A DNA stretch of 64,000 nucleotides from Flavobacteriaceae bacterium PS02337 (GTDB lineage: Bacteria > Bacteroidota > Bacteroidia > Flavobacteriales > Flavobacteriaceae). The notes below the pieces were generated by a model. That model was not told where the DNA came from, ran no database searches, and worked only from the letters and a program-made list of their open reading frames with translations. Positions 451 to 20,214 of the stretch are shown piece by piece. The DNA lies in contig JASCOE010000010.1 of assembly GCA_029959285.1 (NCBI GenBank), positions 1-64,000 on the forward strand, written 5' to 3'. Position 1 is the stretch's first letter; each line of letters begins with the position of its first letter. The translations under genes were made by a program, and so were the position numbers.

Positions 451-480
451 CTTAGTCGAGGGAAAGCGGAGAACCTTACA
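451..480 (-). promoter_or_regulatory. ECF-type promoter element, copy 1 (sigma remnant)
   Basis: On the minus strand TGTAAGG (480-474) is followed after exactly 17 bases by ACTAAG (456-451), preceded by CG. A T-tract precedes the -35 box. The element faces the sigma factor remnant, whose ATG is 65 bases downstream. Confidence 0.75.
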
Positions 481-501
481 AAAAAATGTAGGTTGGGATA
501 A

Positions 502-752
502 TATTTTCTGAGCGAAAAATATGTAATGTGGTACAAGGGAGCAATGGCTGCTCATTTTAATATCTCCACAGAGTATATAGGTCCTTATTTTAAAAGGAAT
601 GTGGGGGTACGCTAAGGGATTATATTAAATTGTACCGTAAAAAAATTATTGGACAACAAATAGCAGGCGGCCGGTACAGCCTTAAAGATATTGCTTCAGA
701 ATTTGGTCTGACCGATGAAAGCCATGTGATAAAAATTCTTAAATCCTCGTAG
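502..752 (+). pseudogene. Frameshifted C-terminal domain of an AraC-family regulator
   Basis: Two overlapping frames together give an AraC-type HTH domain. Frame one (to the TAA at 613-615) has MAAHFNISTEYIGPYFKRNV; frame two (612-752) continues as LRDYIKLYRKKI, then LKDIASEFGLTDESHVIK and a premature stop. The intact AraC protein at 19238-20071 has the corresponding SAHFGISHSYLGRYFKRH and LNEIADELGFVDVSHLNKFF. The break lies at a run of five G (603-607), consistent with loss of one base. The N-terminal sensing domain and the last residues of the second HTH are also gone. It is a remnant of a regulator once present in the island. Confidence 0.7.
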
Positions 753-927
753 TGGCCGGTCTTCTACTAATTCTCTTTTCTATACAGCAGCTTAACTATC
801 CCATTCCTTAAATTTAATTCTGACACCTTAAAAAACCAGAAAAAGATCATTGTATATGTTATTTTCCTTCTAATCAGTATATAGAGTTTGAGGGAATTAT
901 TAATTTTAGGTAAGTTTGAAAAACAGC

Positions 928-957
928 TGTAAGGTTTTGGATCAATCTCCGACTATA
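928..957 (+). promoter_or_regulatory. ECF-type promoter element, copy 2 (DUF2652 gene)
   Basis: TGTAAGG (928-934), 17 bases, then ACTATA (952-957) preceded by CG. The -10 box is one of the weaker matches to ACTAAG. The start codon of the DUF2652 gene is 78 bases downstream. Confidence 0.65.
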
Positions 958-1034
958 TTTAAAAGCAGCTGACTTCCGATAGAATTTTTTCAGCCAGTAT
1001 CCTTACTAAATTATATAAACCCAAATTGCACTGT

Positions 1035-2120
1035 ATGGCAGATAAATCATCATTATTGGTTATTGCGGATATTAGCGGTTTTACGCAGTTTATCCGGGGT
1101 AACGAGATCAGTCATAGCAGGCATATTATTGCTGAACTGATGGAGGTGCTCATAGATGCTGATCCTCTGCATTTGACTGTGGCTGAAATTGAGGGTGATG
1201 CAGTACTGTTTTACCGTTATAATGCTGTGGCGTCGCGCAGTGAGGTAGTGCTCCTGGCTGAAAGACTGTTTGTGGCTTTTCATGAACACCTGCGGCAATA
1301 TGAAAGCTCACGGGTGTGCCAATGCGGTGCCTGTGTAGCGTCAACGTCCCTTAGTCTAAAAATATTGGTGCACGTGGGTCAGATAGAACTATTGAAGGTG
1401 AAGCAATTTCGCAAACCTTTCGGGGAGGCCCTTATCTGGATACATCTGCTTTTAAAAAATACAATTCCCCATCGGGAATATTTGTTATTGTCCAGCGAGT
1501 TCCTGGTCTTGGCGTTGCCACCCGATCATGTTCAGGATCCGGCGTGGATAGAGATTTTTGAAGGTGCGACGAGTTACCAGGACGTTGGTTCAATTTCGTA
1601 TAGTTACATTTCATTGTCCCCGCTGCGTGCCGGGATTAAAGAACCTTTTATAGGTCATTTCCCTAAGCTAACAGAGAATCCATTGGTTGTGACTGCAACT
1701 ATTTCCAAGCCTGCCGCTGAGTTGCACGCACTGCTTGTGAACCTGTCTATAATACCGGAATGGGAAAAATCGATACAGGCTGTACGTCTGAGCAGCGATA
1801 AGATCAACAGATCCGGAACGAGGCACATATGCGTTTCGGATTCCGGATTGCTCAACTTTGAGACTCTTCAAAATCCATGGCCGGATAAACTTGTCTACGG
1901 CCAGCGTATTAGAAATGAAAGAAGAGTCCGCGACTTGTTTTTCTATATAATTTTAGAACCAATAGCAGCCGGAACAAGTGCCAGGATAGAACTGCACTAT
2001 AAGCCATGGCCGTTAATCGGGTGGCTGCTGGAGCGTAAGGTCCGGGAGCGATTTAGGCGTTTCGCGGATGAACTGTTGAAGTCCCTTTCCCAAAACCGTC
2101 TTATCGCCGAGAGTATATAG
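1035..2120 (+). CDS. DUF2652 / SRPBCC-like two-domain protein
   Basis: The 361-residue protein starts at ATG 1035; an in-frame TTG nine bases earlier is less likely. Residues 1-200 match DUF2652: SSLLVIADISGFTQFI near the N-terminus, SRHIIAELMEVLID, and a CQCGAC motif near residue 96 followed by LSLKILVHVGQ. The ADISGFT opening resembles the first strand of class III nucleotidyl cyclases, but I see no clear full set of cyclase catalytic residues. Residues about 210-355 look like a SRPBCC/polyketide-cyclase-like fold (PAAELHALLVNLSIIPEWEK, then a basic C-terminal helix). No signal peptide. It stands alone behind promoter copy 2, so it is probably part of the oxidant regulon. The biochemical role is not known. 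Confidence 0.8.
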   Translation: MADKSSLLVIADISGFTQFIRGNEISHSRHIIAELMEVLIDADPLHLTVAEIEGDAVLFYRYNAVASRSEVVLLAERLFVAFHEHLRQYESSRVCQCGACVASTSLSLKILVHVGQIELLKVKQFRKPFGEALIWIHLLLKNTIPHREYLLLSSEFLVLALPPDHVQDPAWIEIFEGATSYQDVGSISYSYISLSPLRAGIKEPFIGHFPKLTENPLVVTATISKPAAELHALLVNLSIIPEWEKSIQAVRLSSDKINRSGTRHICVSDSGLLNFETLQNPWPDKLVYGQRIRNERRVRDLFFYIILEPIAAGTSARIELHYKPWPLIGWLLERKVRERFRRFADELLKSLSQNRLIAESI

Positions 2121-2195
2121 GGTACAATTATCGGTTTTAGGAAATACAACGTTGAGAATAAAAACAATAATAATAGTAATAATAAAATTGGAATT

Positions 2196-2414
2196 ATGGG
2201 ATTAATGAGGGTGTTTTCAGGAAGCGAAGTTTTAGCAATTGCGCTGCAGCAAAGATTAGAAGAAGCAGGAATAGAAACAACAAAAAAAGATAACATCCAG
2301 TCTGCCCGTTTAGGCGGATTTGGTGCAACAGATTTAGCTGTTGAGGTATTCATTGAAATAACAGATTTTGCAAAAGCAGATTCAGTTATTGAAGATTTCA
2401 AAACGAGTATTTAA
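2196..2414 (+). CDS. DUF2007-type putative signal-transducing protein
   Basis: This 72-residue protein has the DUF2007 pattern: a beta strand LMRVFSGSEVLAIALQQRLE, a short loop, and a C-terminal strand-helix VEVFIEITDFAKADSVIEDF. The family has a GlnB/ferredoxin-like fold and is annotated as putative signal transducing; no reaction is established. The start at 2196 is the first ATG; an internal ATG nine bases downstream (MRVFSG) is a good alternative. It lies 75 bases after the DUF2652 gene in the same direction. A stem-loop at 2524-2552 separates it from the convergent nitroreductase. Confidence 0.75.
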   Translation: MGLMRVFSGSEVLAIALQQRLEEAGIETTKKDNIQSARLGGFGATDLAVEVFIEITDFAKADSVIEDFKTSI

Positions 2415-2523
2415 ACGCTGTTAATCAGAAAATAATGCATTGCAAAATGTTTAGTACCTGAGACTGATATCTTGTTGACAGACAATCGCAGCATAGAGGT
2501 TTATATAAGAACGTTATTTATAA

Positions 2524-2552
2524 AGCGAGCGAATATAAAATATACGCTCGCT
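2524..2552. terminator. Stem-loop between convergent genes
   Basis: AGCGAGCG (2524-2531) pairs with CGCTCGCT (2545-2552), with an inner ATAT/ATAT stem and an A-rich loop. It lies between the ends of the DUF2007 gene and the convergent nitroreductase gene, so it may act in both directions. There is no strong U-tract on either side. Confidence 0.5.
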
Positions 2553-2574
2553 ATAACTAATACTTGTAATTGAA

Positions 2575-3204
2575 TTACTTTAGTTTATTTGAAAATTCGC
2601 CAATTGGCAGACGGACTTTTGCTGCCGAAGTCAGATAATCGTTTTCGGTATCTCTATAGCCCAGAGAAATAATAACTGAAGCATGGAGATTCTTTTCTGA
2701 TAAACCCAAAATAGTATTAAACAGCTCCGGATCAAAGCCTTCCATTGGAGTAGCATCTACTTTAAGTTCAGCTGCTGCGATTAAAGCAGTTCCCAGGCCG
2801 ATATAAGCCTGCTTGCTGGACCAAATCGCGTTTTGCTCAGGATTTTGTGTAGAGAAATGAGAGATCAGAATGTCTTTGTAATCGTTAAGCGCTCCGATTT
2901 CTAAATTTCGCTGTTCTTCCATCATTGCTACATATTCTGCTATGTACTCGCTGGTTATCGTATTAAATGCGGCAAAAACCAGCAGATGGGAAGAATCCTG
3001 GATCTGTGTATTGAATGAACCGGCAGCTAGTTTTTGTCTTATTTCCGGATTCGTTATCACAATCAGGCGATAAGGCTGTATCCCGCAAGAAGAAGCGCTA
3101 AGGTTGACCGCTTCGATAATCTGGTCAATTTTGTTTTCACTAACCATTTCACCTGTGTATTTCTTAACAGCATATCGCCATTGTAAATTTTTGATCAATT
3201 CCAT
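2575..3204 (-). CDS. NAD(P)H-dependent nitroreductase family protein
   Basis: A 209-residue FMN-dependent nitroreductase of the NfsB type. The N-terminus has the family signature WRYAVKKYTGEMVSENKID, then LSASSCGIQPYRLIVI (FMN and substrate region), and the C-terminal QAYIGLGTALIAAAELKVDATPMEGF and VIISLGYRD. These enzymes reduce nitro compounds and quinones with NAD(P)H in the cytoplasm. The start is set at the ATG giving MELIKNLQWRY; the longer frame upstream runs through the operator region. It is divergent from an HxlR regulator, with a palindromic operator between them, the usual arrangement for an electrophile-inducible reductase. Confidence 0.9.
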   Translation of the reverse strand: MELIKNLQWRYAVKKYTGEMVSENKIDQIIEAVNLSASSCGIQPYRLIVITNPEIRQKLAAGSFNTQIQDSSHLLVFAAFNTITSEYIAEYVAMMEEQRNLEIGALNDYKDILISHFSTQNPEQNAIWSSKQAYIGLGTALIAAAELKVDATPMEGFDPELFNTILGLSEKNLHASVIISLGYRDTENDYLTSAAKVRLPIGEFSNKLK

Positions 3205-3247
3205 ATTTATATAATTTTGATACAAAGCTATAGTAGTTTTGTGTATA

Positions 3248-3282
3248 TTTGTCACCAAGTGACAAAAAGTTATAGTGACAAA
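3248..3282. promoter_or_regulatory. Palindromic operator for the HxlR regulator (predicted)
   Basis: TTTGTCAC (3248-3255) and GTGACAAA (3259-3266) form a perfect 8-bp inverted repeat around CAA. A third half-site GTGACAAA follows at 3275-3282, 16 bases after the second. It lies in the divergent gap between the nitroreductase and HxlR genes. HxlR-family regulators bind palindromes in such gaps, so this is the natural binding site; the assignment is by position only. Confidence 0.65.
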
Positions 3283-3301
3283 TAAGTAACCAGCTAGTAA
3301 T

Positions 3302-4374: not shown

Positions 4375-4459
4375 AATCCGTTTCCATAATTGTGAGATTT
4401 GTCACGAAATTCCAGCCTGCACTTTGCGAACTTTGTTGTATAAATTTAAAACACCGAAG

Positions 4460-6378: not shown

Positions 6379-6408
6379 TGTAAGGAATGGTATGACATTA
6401 CTACTAAG
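6379..6408 (+). promoter_or_regulatory. ECF-type promoter element, copy 3
   Basis: TGTAAGG (6379-6385), 17 bases, ACTAAG (6403-6408). It lies 98 bases upstream of copy 4 in the same direction, so the thioredoxin-msrA unit has a tandem pair. No recognisable gene lies between the two copies. Confidence 0.65.
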
Positions 6409-6476: not shown

Positions 6477-6506
6477 TGTAAGGAACTATTCAATATTTAT
6501 ACTAAG
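6477..6506 (+). promoter_or_regulatory. ECF-type promoter element, copy 4 (thioredoxin-msrA)
   Basis: TGTAAGG (6477-6483), 17 bases, ACTAAG (6501-6506). An A-rich tract precedes the -35 box. The thioredoxin start codon is 85 bases downstream. Confidence 0.75.
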
Positions 6507-6590: not shown

Positions 6591-6932
6591 ATGAGAACGA
6601 TTAGCAACATCACAGAATTTGAAGAACTTATGGCTGGCGAAAAACCGGTAGTACTGGACTTTTACGCGGACTGGTGCGGACCATGCAGAGCCTTATTACC
6701 AGTTCTGGAAGCTGCAGGTAACTTTTATGCTGAAGACATTGTGGTGGCAAAGATTAACGTGGACCAAAATGCAGATTTAGCAGCAAAATTTAGCGTTAGA
6801 AGCATTCCCGCTGTATTTCTGATTAAAAATGGCGCTGTGGTAGATCAATTTACAGGTGTTCAGGGCAGCAATGAAATAAATAGCAGAATAGATAATTTGA
6901 TTTCCGTAAACATCGAAAAACCCAGTAATTAA
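6591..6932 (+). CDS. Thioredoxin
   Basis: A 113-residue classical thioredoxin with no signal peptide. VVLDFYADWCGPCRALLPVLE carries the redox-active WCGPC motif near residues 29-33, followed by VAKINVDQNADLAAKFSVRSIPAVFLIKNG with the conserved cis-Pro (SIP). It transfers electrons from thioredoxin reductase to targets such as the methionine sulfoxide reductase encoded 98 bases downstream. It is the first gene behind the tandem promoter copies 3 and 4. This is likely one of several thioredoxins of the cell and specialised by regulation. Confidence 0.93.
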   Translation: MRTISNITEFEELMAGEKPVVLDFYADWCGPCRALLPVLEAAGNFYAEDIVVAKINVDQNADLAAKFSVRSIPAVFLIKNGAVVDQFTGVQGSNEINSRIDNLISVNIEKPSN

Positions 6933-7030: not shown

Positions 7031-7582
7031 ATGAAAAACAAGATTATCACATTAGGGGGTGGATGTTTCTGGTGTACAGAAGCCATTTTTGGAGATACCA
7101 CAGGAGTGCTTGGAGTTAAAAGCGGCTTTAGCGGGGGATTTATAAAGAATCCGCCCTACAGGGAAGTTCGTACAGGAAGGACAGGGCATGCAGAAGTAAT
7201 TCAGATAACCTATGATCCCGTACAGATTAGTTTGCAGGAACTTTTAATAATTCACCTGATGACACACGATCCTACAACAGTAAATCAACAGGGCGCAGAC
7301 AAGGGTGATCAATACCGCAGTGTTATTTTCTATGGAGATGATGACGAGAAAATAGTAGCTCAAAAAGTAATTAGAGATTTACGGTATTACTATTCAGATC
7401 CTATAGTCACTGATTTGAAGCCGTTTACAGTATTTTACGAGGCAGAAGAGGTTCATCAAAAATATTATAAGGAGAATCCCGAAGCATATTATTGCGAGAT
7501 GGTCATCGCTCCAAAATTAGCCAAATATCGTAAAAACCGTGCTGAATATCCGTCGATCTCTGACAATGAGATTATTATGTGA
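7031..7582 (+). CDS. msrA: Peptide-methionine (S)-S-oxide reductase MsrA
   Basis: A 183-residue cytoplasmic MsrA. The catalytic motif GGGCFWCTEAIF is at residues 9-20, with a GCFWC form (second Cys) rather than the common GCFWG. Further family blocks are GHAEVIQITYDPVQISLQELL, GDQYRSVIF and YYKENPEAYYCEMVIAPK. It reduces the S-epimer of methionine sulfoxide in proteins and is recycled by thioredoxin. It lies 98 bases after the thioredoxin gene with no promoter copy in between, so the two are probably co-transcribed. An AG-rich GGAAAGG ten bases before the ATG may be a ribosome binding site, uncommon in this phylum. Confidence 0.95.
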   Translation: MKNKIITLGGGCFWCTEAIFGDTTGVLGVKSGFSGGFIKNPPYREVRTGRTGHAEVIQITYDPVQISLQELLIIHLMTHDPTTVNQQGADKGDQYRSVIFYGDDDEKIVAQKVIRDLRYYYSDPIVTDLKPFTVFYEAEEVHQKYYKENPEAYYCEMVIAPKLAKYRKNRAEYPSISDNEIIM

Positions 7583-7616: not shown

Positions 7617-7646
7617 TGTAAGGATTAAATAATTTTTACGACTAAG
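7617..7646 (+). promoter_or_regulatory. ECF-type promoter element, copy 5 (DPDRY-msrA-msrB)
   Basis: TGTAAGG (7617-7623), 17 bases ending in CG, ACTAAG (7641-7646). A run of nine A directly precedes the -35 box. The first start codon is 72 bases downstream. Confidence 0.78.
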
Positions 7647-7717: not shown

Positions 7718-7921
7718 ATGGATAAGGTAACGGCAGAAATTTTTCAACAGGATCCTGACAGATATACAGTGGTGTCTGGTCATCAGGAAGGAGCTCCAAC
7801 CTGTTCTTTCGGAAATATGCAACAATGGGTAGGATATGATAAAACGGACGAAAAGTATATCAGGTTCACCAAATCAGTTTTCAAACAACTTGTTAAACAA
7901 AAAGAAGATGAAACAAAATAG
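7718..7921 (+). CDS. Small conserved DPDRY-type protein
   Basis: A 67-residue soluble protein with no signal peptide. It has the N-terminal motif QQDPDRYTVVSGHQEGAPT, then CSFGNMQQWVGYD, and a basic C-terminal segment YIRFTKSVFKQLV. I recall similar small proteins near msr genes of Flavobacteriia but know no assigned function. It is the first gene of an operon: its stop codon overlaps the start of the lipoprotein MsrA gene by 14 bases, so translation is coupled. A single Cys (CSFGN) and the tight link to MsrA suggest a helper role in sulfoxide repair or redox sensing; that is inference. Confidence 0.8.
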   Translation: MDKVTAEIFQQDPDRYTVVSGHQEGAPTCSFGNMQQWVGYDKTDEKYIRFTKSVFKQLVKQKEDETK

Positions 7922-8588
7922 TTTATATAGTAACACAACAAAGATCCTATTTGTTGCAGCGCTACTATTAGCTGCAGCACTGGTAATAGTGTCATTTTCA
8001 GGCTGCGGCAATAGTACAGGTTCTCAATCTTTGAAAGAAAAGGCAGTTACCTGGGAAAATATAATTAGTAACGACAGCACGAGTGTGATTTTTTTTGCCG
8101 GCGGATGCTTTTGGGGAACCGAACATTTTTTCAAACAGGTAGACGGAGTTACGGCAACCGAAGTGGGTTTTGCTAATGGTCATAGTGAAAATCCAACTTA
8201 TGACGATGTAATTCGCAAAGAGACAGGCTATGCGGAAACAGTAAAAGTAACATACAATCCCAAAAAAGTTGATTTGAGTCTGCTGCTGGATTTGTATTTT
8301 CTCACAGTTGACCCCACCAGCCTGAACAGACAAGGAAATGATGTTGGAGATCAGTATCGTACCGGTATCTACTGGACCACAGATCAACAGGAACCATTTG
8401 TAAAGGAAAGGGTAAAAGCAGAGTCCGCAAAACATAGCGAACCTGTTGTTGTAGAGGCGATACCGTTAAAAATATATTACAAAGCGGAAGCTTACCATCA
8501 GGCTTATCTTGATAATAATCCTGGGGGATATTGCCATATCAATCCTGCACTATTCAAAGTTGCAAAGGCTGCCAATAAAAAGAAATAA
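7908..8588 (+). CDS. msrA: Lipoprotein MsrA, peptide-methionine (S)-S-oxide reductase
   Basis: Starting at ATG 7908, which overlaps the upstream gene by 14 bases, the protein is 226 residues. The N-terminus is a lipoprotein signal: a hydrophobic stretch KILFVAALLLAAALVIVSF followed by SGCGNS, so Cys in SGC is the likely lipid anchor. The MsrA domain has FFAGGCFWGTEHFFKQVDGV, TGYAETVKVTYNPKKVD, GDQYRTGIYW and YHQAYLDNNPGGYCHI. It should repair methionine sulfoxide in envelope proteins; the reductant outside the cytoplasm is unknown. msrB follows after 33 bases. Confidence 0.93.
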   Translation: MKQNSLYSNTTKILFVAALLLAAALVIVSFSGCGNSTGSQSLKEKAVTWENIISNDSTSVIFFAGGCFWGTEHFFKQVDGVTATEVGFANGHSENPTYDDVIRKETGYAETVKVTYNPKKVDLSLLLDLYFLTVDPTSLNRQGNDVGDQYRTGIYWTTDQQEPFVKERVKAESAKHSEPVVVEAIPLKIYYKAEAYHQAYLDNNPGGYCHINPALFKVAKAANKKK

Positions 8589-8621: not shown

Positions 8622-9080
8622 ATGCTTAACTGGAACAATGTGCTTACGTTTGCCAATAATGGCAATCCTGCACCTGATAAAAGGGTTGAAAAAACTGAAA
8701 ACGAATGGAAAGCGCTTCTTACTGCTGACCAATTTTATGTAACGCGTAAACATGGTACAGAACAATCCCACAGCCATGACCTGTGTACAAGCTGGGATGC
8801 AGGGATTTATTCCTGTGTGTGCTGCAATACGCTGCTATTCGATTCCACCGAAAAATTTGAGTCGGGAACTGGCTGGCCAAGTTTTACACAACCTATTAAA
8901 GAAAATAGTGTAAAGTACATCAAAGACGGTGCATTTGGTATGGTTCGCATAGAAGCTCAATGCAATGTGTGTGATGCGCACCTGGGACATGTATTTCCTG
9001 ACGGCCCTGCGCCTAGTGGTCTTCGTTACTGCATGAACGGAGAGGCGCTGGTTAAAGAAAAAAAAGAAACAGAGAAGTAA
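8622..9080 (+). CDS. msrB: Peptide-methionine (R)-S-oxide reductase MsrB
   Basis: A 152-residue MsrB acting on the R-epimer. It has the zinc-binding CVCC (near 65-68) and CNVCDAHLGHVFPDG pairs, SGTGWPSFTQPI, and the catalytic Cys in LRYCMNGEAL near residue 140. There is no obvious signal peptide, so it appears cytoplasmic although it follows a lipoprotein MsrA gene by 33 bases. Together the DPDRY protein, MsrA and MsrB form one transcription unit behind promoter copy 5, covering both sulfoxide epimers. Confidence 0.94.
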   Translation: MLNWNNVLTFANNGNPAPDKRVEKTENEWKALLTADQFYVTRKHGTEQSHSHDLCTSWDAGIYSCVCCNTLLFDSTEKFESGTGWPSFTQPIKENSVKYIKDGAFGMVRIEAQCNVCDAHLGHVFPDGPAPSGLRYCMNGEALVKEKKETEK

Positions 9081-9250: not shown

Positions 9251-9715
9251 ATGATGAATGATGTAAAGTTTAAAAATACCCGTTTTGACCCCGAGTTGTC
9301 TCCTTTTCATAAACTGGCTGAGAAAATGGCAGACGCTTTTGGATACAAATCCGAATTGAAAACCGATAAAAGCCTCGCCCAGCTTCTGCGCCTGCGGGTG
9401 GCACAAAAAAATGAATGTGCATTTTGTGTAATTTTACATGCTCGTACTGCACGTGAAATTGGTATTCCAGATGCAAAAGCAGACAACATATCATCTTGGT
9501 GGAACAGCTTATTGTTTACCGACAAGGAAAAAGTTGCGTTGGCGTATTGTGATGTATTAACAATTGGCACCCACAAAAATTTCCAGCAATACCACGATGC
9601 GATGTGTGAATATTTTTCAGAAACTGAAATTGCTGAAATCGCTGCTATTATTATCAACATGAATGTATGGACGCGTTTGAAACTGGCACAGGGCCAAACA
9701 CCTTATTTAATGTAA
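9251..9715 (+). CDS. AhpD/carboxymuconolactone decarboxylase-like protein
   Basis: A 154-residue alpha-helical protein of the AhpD/CMD superfamily. The peroxidase-type motif ECAFCVILHARTARE (E-x-x-C-x-x-C-x-x-x-H) is near residues 55-65. Such proteins reduce peroxides or serve as disulfide relays. An ATG doublet at the start (MMNDV) leaves one residue of ambiguity. It ends ten bases before the aldo/keto reductase gene, so the two are likely co-transcribed. No clear copy of the TGTAAGG element precedes it. Confidence 0.88.
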   Translation: MMNDVKFKNTRFDPELSPFHKLAEKMADAFGYKSELKTDKSLAQLLRLRVAQKNECAFCVILHARTAREIGIPDAKADNISSWWNSLLFTDKEKVALAYCDVLTIGTHKNFQQYHDAMCEYFSETEIAEIAAIIINMNVWTRLKLAQGQTPYLM

Positions 9716-9725: not shown

Positions 9726-10676
9726 ATGGGAAATATAGGTTTAGGAACAGCAGCCATAGGTCGTCCGATCTACATAAATATTCGACATGAAAAACCGCGG
9801 GAGGATTTATCCCTGCAGGAGTTCAGGGAAAACGGTATGGGAATATTGGATGATGCTTATGATAATGGCGTTCGGTTTTTCGATGCTTCGCCTGGTTATG
9901 GTTTAGCTGAGTCACTCCTAATAGAATGGCTGGGGCAAAAGAATGATCCGGATATTATTGTAGCTACTAAATGGGGGCTCAGTTATGCGGCCGATTTTGA
10001 TATAAATGCTGTGGTGCATGAGATAAAGGAACATTCTCTGGAAAAGCTGAATGAACAATGGGAATTTTCACGAAAATTGCTTCCTAATTTAAAAATATAC
10101 CAGATACATTCAGCAACTTTGGAAACCGGGGTGCTTGATAACATAGCTATATTACAACGCTTACATGAAATTAAGAAAGAATATAAGATTACTATAGGGC
10201 TTACAACTACCGGAGTAAATCAGGTTGAAGTACTGAGAAAGGCTGTAAATATTGAGATAGAAAATGAACCATTATTCAGCTTATTTCAGAGTACCTATAA
10301 TATTATGGAGCAGTCTGTTTTACAATTGAAAGAAAATTTTCTCAATACCAACAGACAGCTAATACTTAAGGAGTCAATGGCCAATGGGCGTTTAATGCCC
10401 AGTACATCTTTTAAAGGACATAAAAGCCTGTACAGGTACATAACAAAATTGGCTGATAAATATAATGTTGGCGCTGATGCAGTAGCCATCAGGTTCTGCA
10501 TCGATAGTTTTCCTGACGCAATCACTTTAAGCGGTGCCAGCACTGCTGAGCAGCTAGAGTCCAACTTAGCAGCAAAAACTTTTAAACTTCAAAAAGAAGA
10601 GATAGAATTACTGAGCACTTATAAAATTGACCCAATACTTTATTGGGGTGAAAGAAAGCAATTGTCCTGGCAATAG
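9726..10676 (+). CDS. Aldo/keto reductase family oxidoreductase
   Basis: A 316-residue NADPH-dependent TIM-barrel oxidoreductase. The catalytic tetrad is visible: Asp in RFFDASPGYG, Tyr in the same motif, Lys in IVATKWGLS and His in YQIHSATLE. The C-terminal cofactor region has VAIRFCIDSFPDAITLSGAS. It resembles the L-fucose dehydrogenase/pyridoxal reductase branch, and substrate is unknown; carbonyls formed under oxidative stress are a reasonable guess. It follows the AhpD-like gene by ten bases. Confidence 0.88.
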   Translation: MGNIGLGTAAIGRPIYINIRHEKPREDLSLQEFRENGMGILDDAYDNGVRFFDASPGYGLAESLLIEWLGQKNDPDIIVATKWGLSYAADFDINAVVHEIKEHSLEKLNEQWEFSRKLLPNLKIYQIHSATLETGVLDNIAILQRLHEIKKEYKITIGLTTTGVNQVEVLRKAVNIEIENEPLFSLFQSTYNIMEQSVLQLKENFLNTNRQLILKESMANGRLMPSTSFKGHKSLYRYITKLADKYNVGADAVAIRFCIDSFPDAITLSGASTAEQLESNLAAKTFKLQKEEIELLSTYKIDPILYWGERKQLSWQ

Positions 10677-10952: not shown

Positions 10953-10982
10953 TGTAAGGAATCATTCAAAGCTCCGACTAAA
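10953..10982 (+). promoter_or_regulatory. ECF-type promoter element, copy 6 (upstream of trxB)
   Basis: TGTAAGG (10953-10959), 17 bases ending in CG, ACTAAA (10977-10982). The next gene, trxB, starts 280 bases downstream, an unusually long leader for this set. The leader holds only broken short frames, perhaps a lost first gene. Confidence 0.68.
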
Positions 10983-11262: not shown

Positions 11263-12216
11263 ATGATTCAGGAAAATGAACACGTAAAATGTATGATTAT
11301 CGGCTCAGGACCGGCAGGGTATACTGCGGCGATCTATGCTTCCAGAGCAGATCTTAAACCGGTGCTTTATACAGGCCTTACTCAAGGAGGCCAGCTTACT
11401 ACAACTACAGACGTCGAAAATTATCCAGGCTACCCTGATGGAATTATGGGTGTTGAGATGATGGAAAATTTTCGTAAGCAGGCAGCACGTTTTGGTACAG
11501 ATATTAGAAACGGCTTCATTTCAGCAGTCGATTTTTCAGCGATCCCTCACAAAGTAACTACAGATGAAGGGGTGACCATTCTTTGTGATTCAGTGATAAT
11601 ATCTACCGGCGCATCGGCAAAATGGCTGGGTTTAGAATCTGAGAAGACCTATAGTGGTTGCGGTGTTTCAGCGTGTGCAACATGTGATGGTTTCTTTTTT
11701 AAAGGCCAGGATGTAGCTATAGTTGGGGCGGGTGATACCGCGGCCGAAGAAGCAACACATCTGGCTAAGCTCTGTAAAAAAGTATATATGATAGTCAGAA
11801 AAGGCGAACTCAAAGCCTCCAAAGCGATGGTCCACAAGATAAAAGCCACTCCAAATATCGAAATACTCTATCATACAGAAACAAGAGAGATTTTGGGAGA
11901 CGCTTCAGGTGTTACCGGAATCAGTATATTCAATAATGTCAGCAATACAACCGCAACATTGGATGTTTCCGGCTTTTTTGTTGCAATCGGCCACCATCCC
12001 AATACAGAGATTTTTAAAAACTGGTTAATGATGGATAATGAAGGTTATATCCAGACAATTCCTGGATCTTCAAAAACAAACATACCCGGTGTATTTTGTT
12101 GTGGTGATGCACAAGATCGTATTTACAGACAAGCTGTAACTGCTGCCGGCAGCGGATGCATGGCAGCTCTTGACTGCGAAAGATTCCTTTCCGGCATTGT
12201 ACACGAATCAAAATAA
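11263..12216 (+). CDS. trxB: Thioredoxin-disulfide reductase TrxB
   Basis: A 317-residue low-molecular-weight thioredoxin reductase. The FAD-binding motif is GSGPAG (14-19), the redox-active CATC is Cys138-Cys141, the NADPH motif is GAGDTAAEEA near 154, and the C-terminal FAD motif is PGVFCCGDAQDRIYRQAVTAAGSGCMAA. It passes electrons from NADPH to thioredoxins and so feeds the MsrA/MsrB enzymes of the island. It is the first intact gene after promoter copy 6. The genome may well have another trxB elsewhere; this one seems tied to the stress regulon. Confidence 0.95.
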   Translation: MIQENEHVKCMIIGSGPAGYTAAIYASRADLKPVLYTGLTQGGQLTTTTDVENYPGYPDGIMGVEMMENFRKQAARFGTDIRNGFISAVDFSAIPHKVTTDEGVTILCDSVIISTGASAKWLGLESEKTYSGCGVSACATCDGFFFKGQDVAIVGAGDTAAEEATHLAKLCKKVYMIVRKGELKASKAMVHKIKATPNIEILYHTETREILGDASGVTGISIFNNVSNTTATLDVSGFFVAIGHHPNTEIFKNWLMMDNEGYIQTIPGSSKTNIPGVFCCGDAQDRIYRQAVTAAGSGCMAALDCERFLSGIVHESK

Positions 12217-12316: not shown

Positions 12317-12346
12317 TGTAAGGATTTCTGGATTACTGCGACCAAG
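12317..12346 (+). promoter_or_regulatory. ECF-type promoter element, copy 7 (CMD gene)
   Basis: TGTAAGG (12317-12323), 17 bases ending in CG, ACCAAG (12341-12346). The CMD-family start codon is 71 bases downstream. Confidence 0.75.
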
Positions 12347-12416: not shown

Positions 12417-12950
12417 ATGGAAAATGTAATTGACGTTCCAACAAGGGAACAAGTAAACGCAGTAAATCAGGAAATTTTTGACACCCTGAAAAAATCGTTG
12501 GGCTTCGTCCCAAACCTGTACGCTACCATGGCCCATTCGGGAAATGGCCTGGGCAGATATCTTGCGTACCAAAATGGCAAGAGTTCCCTGAACAATAAAG
12601 AAAAAGAAGCAGTTAATCTGATTGTAAGTCAGGTGAACGGCTGCGTATACTGCCAAAGCGCACACACCGTTCTGGGTAAAATGAACGGGTTTAGCGATGA
12701 ACAGATATTAGACATGCGCAAGGGAAATAGTGAAAACGAAAAGTTAAATGCACTAGTGAAACTTGCCGGCGAGATTACAGAAAACCGAGGCCGTGTTAAT
12801 GCCGGGAGTACAGCCGCTTTTTTTGAGCAGGGATATACCAACGAAAATCTTGTAGACTTAATCCTTCTGATTAGCGACAAAACTGCAATGAACTATCTGC
12901 ACAACCTGACAAAAATCCCAGTTGATTTTCCATTGGCACCTACATTGTAA
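12417..12950 (+). CDS. Carboxymuconolactone decarboxylase family protein
   Basis: A 177-residue AhpD-like protein. The redox motif is NGCVYCQSAHTVLGK (C-x-x-C-x-x-x-H) near residues 78-85, preceded by LNNKEKEAVNLIVSQ. The N-terminal part (FDTLKKSLGFVPNLYATMAHS) is typical of the peroxidase-related CMD branch. It has no signal peptide. It stands alone behind promoter copy 7 between trxB and a thioredoxin-like gene. A role in peroxide reduction using a disulfide relay is likely from family knowledge; the substrate is not known. Confidence 0.9.
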   Translation: MENVIDVPTREQVNAVNQEIFDTLKKSLGFVPNLYATMAHSGNGLGRYLAYQNGKSSLNNKEKEAVNLIVSQVNGCVYCQSAHTVLGKMNGFSDEQILDMRKGNSENEKLNALVKLAGEITENRGRVNAGSTAAFFEQGYTNENLVDLILLISDKTAMNYLHNLTKIPVDFPLAPTL

Positions 12951-13846: not shown

Positions 13847-14356
13847 ATGAAAAAAATAATTTTCAGCTATATCCTGGCCATAATTTCAATCAGCGGGTAT
13901 GCCCAGAATATCAAGTCAGATAAAGGACATAAGAACAATCCATACTATTCCACTACAGATACTAAAAAGCTAACGGTTTCCAATGCACAATGGAAAAAAA
14001 TACTATCGGCAGACCTTTATGCTGTAGCCAGAGAAAAGGATACGGAAAGACCATTTACAGGGAAATATTTAAAAAGCAATACAAAAGGTACTTATTACTG
14101 CGCGGCCTGCGGAAACAAACTTTTTAAATCGGATGCAAAATTTGCCAGCAGCTGCGGATGGCCAACTTTCTATGCCCCTCTGAGAAAAAACAGTGTAAGA
14201 TATCAGGCAGACCGCTCACTGTTGATAAGCCGTACTGAGGTACTTTGTGGAAGATGCGACGCGCATCTCGGGCATATTTTTGATGATGGTCCTGCGCCAA
14301 CTTATAAAAGATTCTGTATGAACTCAATTAGTCTGGATTTTGAACCATTCAAATAA
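13847..14356 (+). CDS. msrB: Secreted MsrB, peptide-methionine (R)-S-oxide reductase
   Basis: A 169-residue MsrB with an N-terminal signal peptide (IIFSYILAIISISGYAQ). The catalytic domain has YYCAACGNKLF and CGRCDAHLGHIFDDG (zinc ligands), SSCGWPTFYAPL, and the catalytic Cys in KRFCMNSISLDF near the C-terminus. It should repair methionine R-sulfoxide in envelope proteins and so complements the lipoprotein MsrA. It follows the membrane-anchored thioredoxin by 100 bases. Immediately downstream lies a broken msrA, suggesting an ancestral secreted msrB-msrA pair. Confidence 0.93.
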   Translation: MKKIIFSYILAIISISGYAQNIKSDKGHKNNPYYSTTDTKKLTVSNAQWKKILSADLYAVAREKDTERPFTGKYLKSNTKGTYYCAACGNKLFKSDAKFASSCGWPTFYAPLRKNSVRYQADRSLLISRTEVLCGRCDAHLGHIFDDGPAPTYKRFCMNSISLDFEPFK

Positions 14357-14852: not shown

Positions 14853-14882
14853 TGTAAGGTATACACAGTTGCTGCTACTAAG
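14853..14882 (+). promoter_or_regulatory. ECF-type promoter element, copy 8 (rclC-gap), after a T17 tract
   Basis: TGTAAGG (14853-14859), 17 bases, ACTAAG (14877-14882). A run of 17 T (14837-14853) directly abuts and shares its last T with the -35 box. The start codon of the RclC-like gene is only 23 bases downstream, giving a short leader. Confidence 0.72.
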
Positions 14883-14905: not shown

Positions 14906-15424
14906 ATGATGAAAAAAACAGCAATAGAGATATTTCTCCTTAATTCAGGAAGCATTCTTATACGTTATGGATTAGTAGTAATTTTAATTTGGATAGGCAT
15001 TTTAAAATTCACCCAATATGAAGCGGCCGGTATTCGTCCGCTGGCAGAAAATAGTCCTCTTTTTTCCTGGACTTTTGCTTTTCTAAGCACAATGGCATTT
15101 TCAGCCATTCTTGGTGCCATTGAAATTGCAACCGGTATTTTAATTGCTTTGCGCCCCTTTTCGCCAAAGTTATCAGCTATAGGCAGTTTCGCTGCCATAC
15201 TTACATTTTTAACGACCCTGACATTCATAATCACTACTCCGGGAGTTATAGAGCAAGGATTGCCCTTTCCTTTTATTTCTGCCTCACCTGGACAATTTCT
15301 TATTAAGGACCTGGTGCTTTTGGGAGCGGCATTGTGGACAGCCGGTGAAGCATTGGAAGCGACTCAAATGGAAGGTCGCACCAGAATTGACGTGAAACGC
15401 GCACTATTCAAATATTCAAAATAA
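14906..15424 (+). CDS. rclC: DUF417 (YkgB/RclC-like) membrane protein
   Basis: A 172-residue membrane protein with about four hydrophobic helices. LIRYGLVVILIWIGILKFT-YEAAGI, FSWTF, GAIEIATGILIALRPFSPK and the final SPGQFLIKDLVLLGAALWTAGEAL match the DUF417 family. E. coli RclC (YkgB) is a member of that family and belongs to the rclABC reactive chlorine resistance operon; its biochemical role is not settled. Expression here is predicted from promoter copy 8. The GAPDH gene starts 21 bases downstream, so the two form an operon. The first ATG (MMKK) has a second ATG directly after it. Confidence 0.85.
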   Translation: MMKKTAIEIFLLNSGSILIRYGLVVILIWIGILKFTQYEAAGIRPLAENSPLFSWTFAFLSTMAFSAILGAIEIATGILIALRPFSPKLSAIGSFAAILTFLTTLTFIITTPGVIEQGLPFPFISASPGQFLIKDLVLLGAALWTAGEALEATQMEGRTRIDVKRALFKYSK

Positions 15425-15445: not shown

Positions 15446-16441
15446 ATGAAAAGAATAGCAATCAACGGATTCGGCCGCATAGGACGATCAGCCTTAAAAG
15501 TAATTTTCGAAACTAATGATCTTGAGGTTGTTGGCATAAATGATTTAATGGACATAGAGAATGCAGTATATCTTCTTAAGTACGATAGTAACTATGGCAA
15601 GTATGATAAAAATGTCAGATTTGAAGGGGATACAATTTTTGTCGGCGATAAAGCAATTAAGTATACAAGTATACGTGAGATTGCAGGTTTGCCATGGAAA
15701 GACCTTGATGTAGACGCTGTTATTGAAAGCACAGGGCTGTTTACCAGTCAGGGTGATGCTGAAAAACATATTTTGGCCGGAGCTAAAACGGTAGTAATTT
15801 CTGGTCCTACCAAAGATACCCCTACGGTTGTACACGGGGTGAATACCGACACAGGGAATGTCTCCATTTTCTCATGTGCCAGCTGTACCACCAATAGCAT
15901 CAGTCCAATTATTGAAATTTTAGGCAGAAGACTTGGTATCAAAAAAGCTATTCTTAACACTATTCATGGTTATACCGCTTCGCAGGCTCTTGTTGATGCT
16001 CCCTCAAAAAGAGAGCCCAGAATGGGCAGGGCAGCGGCATTCAATATGGCTCCTGCAGCTACCGGAGCGGCCATAGCTACCACTAAAGTACTGCCTGAGT
16101 ACGTCGGAAAATTTGATGGCATTGCCGTGAGAGTTCCCGTTCCTGTGGGTTCAATTTCAGATATTACCTTTGTGGCTGAAAGACCGACAACTATAGAAGA
16201 AATCAATCAGATATTAACTGAAGAATGCGCTACAGACAGGTATCTAAAAGTAGTTTCCGTAACAAGCGACCCAATCGTTTCTACGGACATCATCGGGAGT
16301 ACTTTCGCTGCAACAGTAGATTTGGAGATGACCAGGGTTGTTGACGGAGATCTGGTAAAAATAATGGCCTGGTATGACAATGAGTGGGGCTTTACTAATC
16401 AAATGATCAGACAGGTACAATCATTATATACAGATCACTAA
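15446..16441 (+). CDS. gap: Type I glyceraldehyde-3-phosphate dehydrogenase
   Basis: A 331-residue GAPDH. INGFGRIGRSALKVIFE is the NAD-binding loop, SCASCTTN carries the catalytic Cys147, the catalytic His lies in ILNTIHGYTASQ, and WYDNEWGFTNQMI closes the protein. It oxidises glyceraldehyde-3-phosphate in glycolysis. Its catalytic Cys is a well known target of peroxide and hypochlorous acid, so a second, stress-induced copy behind rclC makes sense as replacement enzyme; whether the genome has another gap is not visible here. It is 21 bases after the RclC-like gene. Confidence 0.95.
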   Translation: MKRIAINGFGRIGRSALKVIFETNDLEVVGINDLMDIENAVYLLKYDSNYGKYDKNVRFEGDTIFVGDKAIKYTSIREIAGLPWKDLDVDAVIESTGLFTSQGDAEKHILAGAKTVVISGPTKDTPTVVHGVNTDTGNVSIFSCASCTTNSISPIIEILGRRLGIKKAILNTIHGYTASQALVDAPSKREPRMGRAAAFNMAPAATGAAIATTKVLPEYVGKFDGIAVRVPVPVGSISDITFVAERPTTIEEINQILTEECATDRYLKVVSVTSDPIVSTDIIGSTFAATVDLEMTRVVDGDLVKIMAWYDNEWGFTNQMIRQVQSLYTDH

Positions 16442-17006: not shown

Positions 17007-17116
17007 TCTCTAAACAGGTAAACAATTACCGCCACGTCGGGTGAAAGCGGTAGAAAATGCAGGCAACTGCGCAAATAATTTTGTATATAAATTAATAACA
17101 ATTAAAACCAAAAAAT

Positions 17117-17443: not shown

Positions 17444-17507
17444 GAAGACAGGTTCAGAAAATTTCAGGACGGATTATAAAATAATTTAAACCAAAAATAC
17501 ATTAATT

Positions 17508-17999
17508 ATGGAAAATTTAAAAAAAGCGTATGTAGCGGGCGGTTGTTTCTGGGGGATGGAAGATCTATTCAGGGTACGTCCTGGAGTAAAAGATACAGAA
17601 GTTGGCTATCTGGGAGGACTAAACGACAACCCGACCTATCAGAACCATCCGGGACATGCCGAAGGGCTGGAAATTACCTACGATCCAAATGAGACAACGT
17701 ATAAGGAACTACTAGATTATTTTTTCAGAGTTCATGATCCAAGCACTGTAGACAGACAGGGCAACGACAGAGGATCCAGTTATCGTTCGGCATTGTTTAT
17801 CCAGAACGAGGAAGAAAGAAGCGACGCACAGGAAATCATAAAGATTGTTGATGACTCAGGAAGATGGCCTGGAAAAGTGGTAACAACACTGGAACCTTTC
17901 ACTACATTCTGGACCGCTGAAGGTGACCACCAGGATTATCTTGTCATGTACCCAAATGGGTATACCTGCCACTTTGAGAGGTTTGGTACCTTTCTATAA
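17508..17999 (+). CDS. msrA: Peptide-methionine (S)-S-oxide reductase MsrA
   Basis: A 163-residue cytoplasmic MsrA of short form. [16 protein letters not shown] contains the catalytic Cys, then [37 protein letters not shown] and [18 protein letters not shown]. The common G-D-QYRS block reads GSSYRS here. It is the third intact MsrA of the window. It follows the WCATC thioredoxin by 64 bases. In the gap, bases 17450-17464 (AGGTTCAGAAAATTT) equal part of promoter copy 9 but lack the TGTA and a good -10, so any promoter there is degenerate. Confidence 0.94.
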
Positions 18000-18113
18000 G
18001 ATTGCGGATTATGGTACGTATTATTTTAACCACAGCATAAGAATTTTAAAGGCTGTAAGCCATCGTTAAAACTTTAATAGTTTTGCGCATGTGTCACCCT
18101 AAGAAAGCAATCA

Positions 18114-18935
18114 ATGATTTATCAAGGCAAACAAAATGAATATTTTGAGATACAAAGTATAGATAATAATAATTACAGGAGCTACAGGCCAATCGTCAGC
18201 GGGGCTTTACAGCTCCTGTGGTTTTTATCTGATGGCAATAATCTGACAATAGACGGGATATCCCATACCTTTAAGGCCAATCAGATTATAAGTCTTTCAC
18301 AGCATCATAATGTGGAGTATGACCAGATCAGTGCCATGACAATGCTGCGCTTCAACCAGGAATTCTACTGTGTACTAAACCACGACAGTGAAGTGGGGTG
18401 CAAAGGCATATTGTACTATAATCCATCAAAAATTCCTGTTCTGCTAATTGAAGGAACAGAGTTAATGGTCATGAACGACGCCTGGGACTTAACCCATATG
18501 GAATTGGAAATGAAAGACAGCCTGCAGCTTGAAATGCTTCAGATGCAACTCAAACGAATATTGATACTCTGCACACGAATGTACAAGAAGCAGGGCACCA
18601 TGGGGGATATTGATGATAACCAGCATGATCTGGTGCGCGAGTTCAATTTTCTGGTTGAAAAAAACTTTAGAGAACATCATACTGTGTCGAGTTATGCAGC
18701 CTTATTGCATAAGTCACCCAAGACCATTACAAATACCTTTAATAAGATTGGTGAGAAATCGCCTCTTCAGGCCATACATGACCGCATAGCATTGGAATCA
18801 AAAAGGCTGTTGCATTACACAAAGAAAGATATTTCTGAAATCGCTTACGAACTTGGTTTTGAGAATGTCCAGACATTCAGCCGTTTTTTCAAAAAGCAGG
18901 TAGGATTTTCCCCTACAGTGTTTAGAATTAGTTGA
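18114..18935 (+). CDS. AraC-family transcriptional regulator
   Basis: A 273-residue regulator. The N-terminal half (about 1-165) looks like a cupin-type sensing domain of the FixK/CRP-like kind seen in Bacteroidota AraC proteins (GALQLLWFLSDGNNLTIDG). The C-terminal HTH pair is clear: TVSSYAALLHKSPKTITNTFNK and ISEIAYELGFENVQTFSRFFKKQVGFSPTVFR. It has three Cys in the sensing half (near CVLNHDSEVGC and CTRMYK). It lies downstream of the msrA gene and converges with the AraC gene at 19238-20071. Targets are unknown. Confidence 0.9.
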   Translation: MIYQGKQNEYFEIQSIDNNNYRSYRPIVSGALQLLWFLSDGNNLTIDGISHTFKANQIISLSQHHNVEYDQISAMTMLRFNQEFYCVLNHDSEVGCKGILYYNPSKIPVLLIEGTELMVMNDAWDLTHMELEMKDSLQLEMLQMQLKRILILCTRMYKKQGTMGDIDDNQHDLVREFNFLVEKNFREHHTVSSYAALLHKSPKTITNTFNKIGEKSPLQAIHDRIALESKRLLHYTKKDISEIAYELGFENVQTFSRFFKKQVGFSPTVFRIS

Positions 18936-19237
18936 AAAAGCAAAGAAATTATCACTTCAAAATTTATATGTTCCTGTTACTAATTACTTATTAGGTTTTT
19001 ACGGTGCGCAACGTTACTGTGAAAGCCCTATTTAAATATTTGTATAAAGGCTACTTTTGCAGACGGAACCAGATAATAAAGACTTATTGCTGTTGCATAT
19101 TAAATGCGCAGAGAGATAGTCACATTTAGATAATGGACAAAAATTAGGACATCCCCTATATCTTTATCCGCGATGGTATTGGTTCTGTAAAAGCAATAAT
19201 TCTTTTTTAAATACTTTTTAATCTTTTGGAGAGCCAA
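18936..19237. other. Gap between two convergent AraC genes
   Basis: No gene, no clear hairpin with U-tract and no repeat were seen in this 302-base stretch. Confidence 0.4.
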
Positions 19238-20071
19238 TTACACTCCATTGCGGTAAACAGTAGGACTGATGCTGGTCTGCTGGATGAAAAATTTATTTAA
19301 ATGGCTCACATCGACAAAGCCAAGTTCATCTGCTATTTCATTTAGTCTTTTATCACTGAATTTTAATCGATGCTGTATCAGCTTAGTTTTATATTTTCCA
19401 ATGTATCCCTGCATTGTCTCGTTGGTATGTCTTTTGAAGTACCTGCCCAGATAGGAGTGTGAGATTCCGAAATGTGCACTGACTGATCCTGCCTTTAACT
19501 TCTCAGGAAAATAAATGTTATGCTGTATATATTGAAGTATATCCAATGCCTTTTCCTCAGTTGAAACATCAACTGCCTGAGGAAGGTATTTTGCAATATT
19601 TCTGGCAACAATAATAATCAGTGTATTTACCAACTGATGAATCAGTTCGGGATTATATAAATCTTTGCTTTCATGCTCCCGGATAATTGCCTCGATAATA
19701 GGGTTGACCAGTAATTTATCAGCTTTGTATCTAAATATACATCCGGGCTGATGATTAGCGTTCTGAAGTATATACTCCAATCTTTTGACGTTTTCCTCAA
19801 CCAGCGCTTTGTTCTGGATATATATAGAGTTGAACTGAAGAAAAAACATCTGACTGGTTGTATGAATGTCAAATGAATGAGAGTCCTCTGGCGTGAGTAA
19901 GAATAAATGTCCAGGCTGGTATTTAAAAGTGCTGTTATTAATGCACTGTATGCCTGTACCCGATAGTATATAAACCAACTCAAAAAAGGTATGCTGATGG
20001 GCTGGTTTAGGGCACACATCAAGTGTAGCATATTTAATCGAGTAGGATTCGTGAAGTATTTCTTTTTGCAT
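19238..20071 (-). CDS. AraC-family transcriptional regulator
   Basis: A 277-residue AraC protein with an N-terminal cupin domain (KPAHQHTFFELVYILSGTGIQ, then YQPGHLFLLTPEDSHSFD) and a C-terminal HTH pair (KAGSVSAHFGISHSYLGRYF and LNEIADELGFVDVSHLNKFF). It is divergent from the quinone-reductase-like gene at 20277, with promoter copy 9 between them. The frameshifted remnant at 502-752 belongs to the same subgroup. This regulator may control the adjacent reductase; ligand unknown. Confidence 0.9.
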   Translation of the reverse strand: MQKEILHESYSIKYATLDVCPKPAHQHTFFELVYILSGTGIQCINNSTFKYQPGHLFLLTPEDSHSFDIHTTSQMFFLQFNSIYIQNKALVEENVKRLEYILQNANHQPGCIFRYKADKLLVNPIIEAIIREHESKDLYNPELIHQLVNTLIIIVARNIAKYLPQAVDVSTEEKALDILQYIQHNIYFPEKLKAGSVSAHFGISHSYLGRYFKRHTNETMQGYIGKYKTKLIQHRLKFSDKRLNEIADELGFVDVSHLNKFFIQQTSISPTVYRNGV

Positions 20072-20184
20072 CCTGTAAAGATACTACATTGTGGAAAACT
20101 TGTACTTCATATGTAGTGTTTAACTGGTATATATTTTCTTAATATAAATTATTTGAAATTTTTCTTACATTTTTAATTAAAAAA

Positions 20185-20214
20185 TGTAAGGTTCAGAAAA
20201 TTTTCACGACCAAG
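20185..20214 (+). promoter_or_regulatory. ECF-type promoter element, copy 9 (quinone reductase)
   Basis: TGTAAGG (20185-20191), 17 bases ending in CG, ACCAAG (20209-20214). The -35 box is one arm of a near-perfect palindrome: CTTACATTTTT (20164-20174) and AAAAAATGTAAG (20179-20190). The other arm would give a degenerate divergent promoter toward the AraC gene. Confidence 0.75.

Follow-up and report, generated by a model that had tools for sequence, protein, structure and literature searches.

The window analysed here is the first 64,000 nucleotides of contig JASCOE010000010.1 (C1 in our numbering) of Flavobacteriaceae bacterium PS02337, assembly GCA_029959285.1. Between positions 451 and 20,214 it holds nine copies of a two-box DNA element, TGTAAGG-N17-ACTAAG, set among genes for methionine sulfoxide reductases (MsrA and MsrB), thioredoxin, thioredoxin reductase (TrxB) and others. 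At one end of this 20-kb island, an element faces the remnant of a gene for an extracytoplasmic function (ECF) sigma factor, which abuts the end of a multicopy insertion sequence. All features are collected in Table 1.

The initial annotation read the nine copies as promoters of one ECF-type regulon, and its description of them holds. They stand where it had placed them, with a spacer of exactly 17 bases in 9/9; all of them point toward a gene; the -10 boxes are ACTAAG (five), ACCAAG (two), ACTAAA (one) and ACTATA (one); and CG directly precedes the -10 box in six. The start codon lies 24-281 bases from the -10 box. TGTAAGG-N17-ACYAAR is matched exactly by eight elements, and with one mismatch (ACTATA) by that at 928-957. 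Eight exact matches compare with 0.01 expected in the window, a number reached by 0/100 dinucleotide shuffles, and TGTAAGG alone occurs 15 times against 6.4 expected (0/100 shuffles reach 15). With up to two mismatches allowed there are 13 matches against 6.4 expected, and 3/100 shuffles reach 13; the four loose matches outside the nine are therefore at chance level. Judging by the letters, the putative -10 box is better written CGACTAA and the full element TGTAAGG-N15-CGACTAA.

A scan of the whole genome (5,697,118 bases in 56 contigs), as the annotation had proposed, confines the element to two contigs instead of scattering it at random. The exact pattern gives ten matches, eight in C1:451-20214 and two on contig C16, and the relaxed form TGTAAGG-N17-ACNANR gives 11 without mismatch, namely the nine in the window and the same two contig C16 sites, against 3 for a reversed control. 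One of the C16 elements precedes a gene for a LUD-domain protein and the other a paralogue of the window's quinone reductase gene. One-mismatch matches elsewhere in the genome mean nothing, because there are 37 in all against 55 for the reversed control. A good part of these belong to a repeat scattered over many contigs (for example at C3:180361, C11:69876 and C56:227310), whose units resemble TTAAGGTTCTAAG...ACTAAG.

The sigma factor that goes with the element was found in other genomes. Among 395 genomes of the class, exact matches occur in 115 and are mostly scattered; close groups of the element, among the matches listed, are seen only in family f41. At six loci of this family an ECF sigma gene, intact and coding for 176-207 residues, comes directly after the element and is itself followed by a gene for a small zinc-finger-like protein. 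An alignment of these six sigmas (A1) led, in a scan of named genomes, to 313 relatives, and the loci used below are the best 80 of the 313: mostly Mucilaginibacter, then Pedobacter, and also Chitinophaga, Arcticibacter, a Puia metagenome-assembled genome (MAG) and unplaced Bacteroidetes MAGs.

In each locus we scanned the 320 bases upstream of the sigma gene plus 40 bases into the match. A loosened pattern that admits spacers of 12-23 bases finds 38 box pairs, of which 35 have a spacer of 17. A matrix built from those 35 sites then scores at least 5.8, with the spacing unchanged, in 42 of the 45 remaining loci, whereas the best of 80 shuffled regions reaches -4.4. The element thus lies upstream of the sigma gene in 77/80 loci (the loosened pattern accounts for 35 and the matrix for 42), with the consensus tTGTAAGG(A/T)TTT-N9-aaCGACTAAg, and the claim that the elements are ECF-type promoters gains from their recurrence, spacing included, just upstream of intact ECF sigma genes in other genera. 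The three misses are L161, where the boxes are present with a spacer one base shorter, L167, where they are degenerate, and L196, where the contig begins too close. The 35-site matrix contains no sequence from the window, and at a threshold of 8 bits it returns exactly the nine elements there (8.7 to 31.9 bits); 30 first-order simulated 64-kb windows yield 3 matches in all.

By their domains these sigma factors belong to the ECF group: the intact relatives, and not the window remnant, combine predicted regions 2 and 4 in a protein of about 190 residues. The sigma of L156 scores 53.2 bits with PF04542, 67.2 with TIGR02937 (cut-off 42.9) and 22.7 with PF08281, just under the cut-off; that of a congeneric genome (G749) passes both Pfam cut-offs (PF04542 55.9 bits, cut-off 24; PF08281 29.5 bits, cut-off 25.7). 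The best family for the two members with scores is TIGR02943 (Sig70_famx1), at 155.3 and 149.2 against a cut-off of 162.2, and 38/38 members match it at 1e-10 or better. An AlphaFold model of the sigma factor was weak (mean pLDDT 68.6) and was not used. A tree places the sigmas of the island and those of Mucilaginibacter, Pedobacter and Chitinophaga in one group with a support of only 0.79, and BLAST scores were relied on instead.

A gene for a protein of the zinc anti-sigma (ZAS) type follows the sigma gene in 80/80 loci. All of these proteins, of about 91 residues, have H-x3-C-x2-C, and the 76 that were parsed all have C-x25-H, so that the motif reads Cys-x25-His-x3-Cys-x2-Cys. By its sequence the protein fits the rule C-x(23-26)-H-x3-C-x2-C of ZAS factors of the RsrA/MseR/HrsE type. 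A sequence search of the PDB with it gave nothing useful.

The probable targets of the element can be read from the intact genomes. The 80 loci contain 210 sites of at least 15 bits, and an open reading frame (ORF) starts within 150 bases downstream of 176 of them, compared with 400 of 3200 random points. The 209 first downstream proteins were grouped by similarity; family names were tested on single members, the others being assigned by similarity or by eye. The sigma factor is first in 74 loci, a DUF1223 protein in 56, a peroxiredoxin (AhpC/TSA type) in 19 and a 170-residue protein with no NCBIfam match in 7; smaller groups are cytochrome b561-like (3), spondin-like (3), YHS-like (2), MsrB (1), DoxX (1, in L180) and DUF417 (1). 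In L235 and L253 the element is followed by DUF417 proteins that score 109 and 117.7 bits with PF04224. L156 contains a cytochrome b561 (PF01292, 70.1 bits) and an MsrP-like protein (PF00174, 98.9 bits; MsrP model 84.9 against a cut-off of 207). Many targets of the intact Bacteroidota loci have, by eye, signal-peptide-like starts.

A secreted-type peptide rich in lysine and methionine lies downstream in at least 37 of the 80 loci, a lower bound since the longest ORF within 350 bases was taken. Short peptides of this kind with the element upstream are seen across L161-L232 (e.g., L212 10955+, L216 6874+ and L200 6027+); 34 of them contain 12-17% methionine and 20-28% lysine. Five of the methionine-rich peptides were compared with TIGR02953 (MXKDX repeat model, cut-off 41): one scores 13.9 bits and four have no match. 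No methionine-rich peptide or MsrPQ-type gene was seen in the window, and the rest of the genome was not searched for one.

Sites away from the sigma locus extend this list. In twelve intact genomes TGTAAGG-N15-CGACNA occurs 1-6 times each, 43 in total against 14 for the reversed control; counted by hand, 24 of these sites belong to the sigma locus. Sites elsewhere lie before MsrB genes (L257, L269), a DUF417 gene (L253) and an AhpC/TSA gene (L267), among others; MsrB and DUF417 proteins are therefore targets common to the window and the intact genomes.

Table 1. Elements, genes and other features of the window (scores in bits; "matrix" is the 35-site matrix).
Feature	Position	Strand	Remarks
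End of multicopy insertion sequence, IS3-like by eye	1..125	-	At contig end; abuts broken sigma gene
ECF sigma remnant, 79 codons	147..386	-	PF04542 17.6, below cut-off 24
Element 1	451..480	-	Faces sigma remnant (putative autoregulation); matrix 27.5; boxes 12/13 as before G749 sigma gene
Element 2	928..957	+	Before DUF2652 gene; matrix 29.3
DUF2652 protein	1035..2120	+	PF10851 123.8
Element 3	6379..6408	+	Distal of two before trx-msrA; matrix 19.1; not conserved in G749
Element 4	6477..6506	+	Proximal, before trx-msrA; matrix 8.7; boxes 13/13 conserved in G749
Thioredoxin	6591..6932	+	TIGR01068 103.2, cut-off 96.8
MsrA	7031..7582	+	TIGR00401 172, cut-off 108.1
Element 5	7617..7646	+	Before small ORF-msrA-msrB-CMD-aldo/keto reductase; matrix 31.9; boxes 12/13 conserved in G749
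Small ORF, 67 residues (DPDRY of the initial annotation)	7718..7921	+	Open reading frame
MsrA with N-terminal extension, start uncertain	7836..8588	+	TIGR00401 181.5
MsrB	8622..9080	+	TIGR00357 169.2
Carboxymuconolactone decarboxylase (CMD)-type, AhpD-like protein	9251..9715	+	PF02627 34.4
Aldo/keto reductase	9726..10676	+	PF00248 72.5
Element 6	10953..10982	+	Before trxB; matrix 23.3; boxes 13/13 conserved in G749
Thioredoxin reductase TrxB	11263..12216	+	TIGR01292 368.5, cut-off 343.45
Element 7	12317..12346	+	Before CMD gene; matrix 29.9; boxes 13/13 conserved in G749
CMD-family protein	12417..12950	+	PF02627 45.8
MsrB without element directly upstream	13847..14356	+	TIGR00357 166; no matrix match nearby
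Element 8	14853..14882	+	Before rclC-like-gap; matrix 24.9; boxes 12/13 conserved in G749, there preceding gap
RclC-like DUF417 membrane protein	14906..15424	+	PF04224 103.3; NF040476 (RclC) 86.7, below cut-off 275
Glyceraldehyde-3-phosphate dehydrogenase	15446..16441	+	TIGR01534 357, just under cut-off 367.2
MsrA, further island member	17508..17999	+	TIGR00401 163.5
Element 9	20185..20214	+	Before quinone reductase gene; matrix 24.2; near-identical element before paralogue on C16
Zinc-binding dehydrogenase / quinone reductase	20241..21215	+	PF13602 90.7

The island has a sister in the congener G749. Strict-pattern scans of 200 and then 399 genomes of the genus, the latter giving six matches to the CG pattern in our own genome and one each in three others, pointed at first to a cluster unique to this genome; this was wrong. 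The G749 island, on its contig C2 at about 104-145 kb, has at least nine elements, only one of which (before trxB) fits the strict pattern, and it was through that match that the island surfaced. More such islands with variant boxes may exist. G749 holds many of the window's genes together with an intact sigma gene (134266-134847) and a ZAS anti-sigma gene (133952-134362); the matrix gives eight matches of at least 9.1 bits in 60 kb and one more before an MsrA gene.

Six elements (those of the sigma, trx, msrA, trxB, CMD and rclC-gap genes) were paired between the two islands, elements 928 and 20185 lying outside this comparison. Their boxes agree in 75 of 78 bases and their spacers in 57 of 102, and the view of the initial annotation that the copies form one regulon gains support from their presence before six corresponding genes in a second genome. 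The DPDRY residues of the small ORF at 7718-7921 are not kept there: by hand translation, the DNA reads EPGRY.

The G749 island has features of its own. A second, diverged sigma/anti-sigma pair lies at C2:142446-143513 (L326), close to an MsrA-like gene that has an element before it. An element precedes a ferritin gene (C2:132273-132797; PF00210, 119.7 bits), a target type not seen in the window. By eye, ergothioneine-like genes occur within the island (C2, 119-126 kb) and mobilisation-protein-like genes near it (C2:88-93 kb, L282). On contig C16 of our own genome (L032: 1599-2762, 6556-7500 and 8827-9818), ergothioneine genes adjoin two more msrA genes; EgtB scores 515 bits (cut-off 360) and EgtD 279, just under the cut-off of 290.9. 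Going by these genes in both genomes, a thiol antioxidant pathway may be part of the regulon region.

The G749 sigma factor has a median score of 210 bits with the 38 sigmas of alignment A3, against 124 with 25 parsed divergent sigmas of congeners. Relatives of it at 1e-15 occur in at least 32 of the 399 congeners (8 candidates were scored in many genomes), all but that of G749 itself at no more than 44% identity. The divergent congener pairs were considered as owners of the element and rejected: 25 of 29 loci were parsed, and all 25 have a ZAS-like protein and none the element upstream (best matrix score -6.9). Among these pairs (L286-L308, L066-L081), L072 (in G146) stands beside msrA-msrB and L070 beside a CMD gene, by eye. 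The G+C content per 4 kb is 36.5-39.7% in the first 24 kb of the window and 29.0-35.4% in the rest. Taken together, the likeness to the G749 island, the distribution of the sigma factor among congeners and the higher G+C content suggest horizontal acquisition, and the window's 20-kb set looks like an acquired regulon of this type. A plasmid search (near mode) gave no match. Elsewhere in the window, 46090-56236 holds, by eye, a large non-ribosomal peptide/polyketide synthase pair together with a gene resembling those for phosphopantetheinyl transferases.

In PS02337 the sigma gene is broken. The remnant aligns with intact sigmas over region 2 as far as KTW, then runs into unrelated residues and stops about 20 bases from the insertion sequence; it is 48% identical to G749 sigma 1 over 62 residues and scores 40.9 bits with the A1 profile. 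Positions 1 to about 125 have copies of 99-100% identity at no fewer than ten other places in the genome, all ten at contig ends (40 of 74 candidates scored), and translated frames of the insertion sequence show, by eye, a transposase-like start. About 55 bases between KTW and the insertion sequence (126-182) do not align with intact sigma genes, and a small rearrangement there, as well as the insertion, is possible from the sequence.

Searches of the own genome found no other copy. A profile search for a full-length sigma of the clade (27/27 candidates scored) returned, besides the remnant, general ECF factors of up to 49 bits; the G749 sigma found nothing at 1e-15 (8 of 22 candidates scored); the missing C-terminal half was sought and not found; and the best candidate for the anti-sigma had an E-value of 0.32 and stops inside (51/51 scored). 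With the window's sigma gene broken and no intact sigma or anti-sigma of the clade found in the assembly, the regulon is probably orphaned in this strain, its nine promoters being left without a master sigma.

We therefore regard it as highly probable that the nine elements are -35/-10 promoters of one ECF sigma clade that would drive the repair of oxidant damage, an acquired set whose sigma gene is broken here. In intact genomes, the sigma gene would transcribe itself from TGTAAGG-N15-CGACTAA, and the reduced, zinc-bound anti-sigma factor would hold its product. Oxidation of the cysteines, by hypochlorite or another thiol oxidant, would most likely make the anti-sigma release the sigma. Free sigma would then switch on genes that mend oxidised methionine and thiols (MsrA, MsrB, thioredoxin, TrxB, peroxiredoxin and MsrP-like enzymes) along with the methionine-rich secreted peptide, a putative sacrificial oxidant sink. 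Thioredoxin and TrxB would bring back the reduced form, a step that the available part of PMC2893595 describes for SigR-RsrA. In PS02337 the promoters most likely lack their master sigma and would be silent. Hypochlorite is suggested as the inducer because the target types are shared with RpoE2-HrsE (PMC7907618) and BcrS-AbcS (PMC8315932), as far as the available parts of those papers describe them.

Several points weigh against this interpretation. It is built on sequence comparison, and promoter activity, binding and induction are predictions. The 35 matrix sites were chosen with a loosened form of the pattern in the initial annotation, and the conserved boxes were thus partly given; that choice has no bearing on the location ahead of sigma genes, on the constant spacing or on the retrieval of the nine elements. 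More distant members of the clade fall outside the 80 loci. Within the window, three of the nine elements have no CG before the -10 box, the element at 6477 has the lowest matrix score, close to the threshold, and the distal trx element (6379) has no counterpart in G749, though its neighbour at 6477 is kept. The anti-sigma model (mean pLDDT 88) has the zinc anti-sigmas RsiW and RslA as its best matches, a point in favour, but the Foldseek E-values are weak (0.52). MseR, with the same Cys/His spacing, governs a regulon that the available part of PMC2893595 describes as not induced by peroxide, diamide or singlet oxygen. Lastly, the break lies at a contig end of a 56-contig assembly, and the rest of the sigma gene could be unassembled.

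This last point also serves a rival reading, which accepts the elements as promoters of the clade and holds that they are still active, served by another ECF sigma of the genome or by an intact copy in an assembly gap. It can call on how well the nine elements are kept despite the broken gene, on 28 places in the own genome that exceed the region-4 cut-off, and on the repeat beside the break. We consider it improbable, given that the profile searches found only general ECF factors besides the remnant and no anti-sigma, and that none of the genome's 11 elements precedes another sigma gene. It is much less probable again that the two boxes form the operator of a transcription activator. Fixed spacing alone would fit a DNA-binding dimer equally well, but neither box is an inverted or direct copy of the other, each of the nine elements is oriented toward a gene, and the element tracks the sigma gene of its own clade, with none detected before the divergent sigma-ZAS pairs of the 25 parsed congener loci; it also resembles (T/C)GTAAC-N17-CGAA, the consensus of ECF16, with which a mapped Brucella start site agrees (PMC8315932, available part).

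That the copies are a dispersed repeat, or chance, with no regulatory meaning we judge close to negligible. The excess of exact matches over expectation, boxes that stay while spacers diverge, placement before start codons and the six corresponding genes kept in G749 all speak against it, and what it has in its favour is that the one-mismatch matches include a repeat, dispersed over the genome, with similar letters (TTTAAGGTTCTAAG...ACTAAG). A derivation of the nine elements from that repeat was rejected: their spacers and flanks do not share the family.

The preferred reading, promoters of an ECF sigma with a zinc-type anti-sigma, has several known parallels. Oxidant-linked ECF systems with methionine repair have been described in Neisseria, Haemophilus, Brucella and Streptomyces; a literature search restricted to open-licence papers found no report of this promoter or of such a Bacteroidota system. 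In the sources as available, Neisseria meningitidis SigE-MseR and Haemophilus influenzae RpoE2-HrsE likewise have a small ZAS anti-sigma right after the sigma and control methionine sulfoxide reductase (PMC2893595, PMC7907618); the MseR residues Cys4, His30, Cys34 and Cys37 have the spacing seen here (PMC2893595), and RpoE2-HrsE has a DoxX-like target, as does L180 (PMC7907618). The present system differs from these two in its phylum (Bacteroidota), its several msr genes, its acquired island, and target sets that also hold thioredoxin, TrxB, peroxiredoxin and methionine-rich peptides; the likeness is drawn from descriptions, not from direct protein comparison.

The hypochlorite-linked ECF16 group (SigF-NrsF type) looks similar in promoter and targets. 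The ECF16 consensus, of Brucella BcrS-AbcS and the related Azospira system, resembles TGTAAGG-N15-CGACTAA, and the targets next to the sigma include a methionine-rich repeat peptide and an MsrQP-type pair; its anti-sigma, however, comes from the NrsF family of six-helix membrane proteins (PMC8315932, available part), whereas a ZAS-type protein is found here throughout. The promoter also departs from the ECF16 rule, with TGTAAG and 16 bases to CGAC: the distance is shorter by one base, the -35 box has G for C and the -10 box C for A. As it has no NrsF membrane anti-sigma and its boxes are not the same, we do not file the system under ECF16.

In Streptomyces coelicolor SigR-RsrA, the positions C11, H37, C41 and C44 are identical and thioredoxin closes a feedback loop, according to the available part of PMC2893595; that system belongs to another phylum, and many targets here have the signal-peptide-like starts noted above. 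RclC, a reactive-chlorine membrane protein, has DUF417 kin under element 8 and in L235 and L253, the window protein falling well short of the RclC cut-off (Table 1). In F. psychrophilum, mapped promoters include TAnnTTTG, which belongs to the main sigma, and a CGT-box motif, which belongs to an ECF factor; as the available part of PMC9723704 describes them, both are different from this element. TGTAAGG in R. sphaeroides is part of an unrelated 20-base site (PMC4344238, likewise in part).

What, then, does the finding mean for the Bacteroidota? With some reserve, we favour the view that they have a reactive-chlorine response of their own, in which a thiol-zinc switch of the RsrA type would be combined with an ECF16-like promoter and with targets such as the sacrificial methionine-rich peptide and MsrP-like proteins. 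A cytoplasmic-repair version (Msr, thioredoxin and TrxB, with ergothioneine genes nearby) would move between species as an island, and here an insertion sequence would have taken out the sigma factor, leaving at least nine promoters as a natural orphan regulon. The exact promoter, sigma, anti-sigma and target list are now in hand across several genera, which makes the proposal testable at once. The congeneric pair, of which G749 has the master sigma and PS02337 apparently does not, offers a model for the fate of a regulon after loss of its regulator, and a group of unannotated methionine-rich secreted peptides can be named as probable oxidant sinks.

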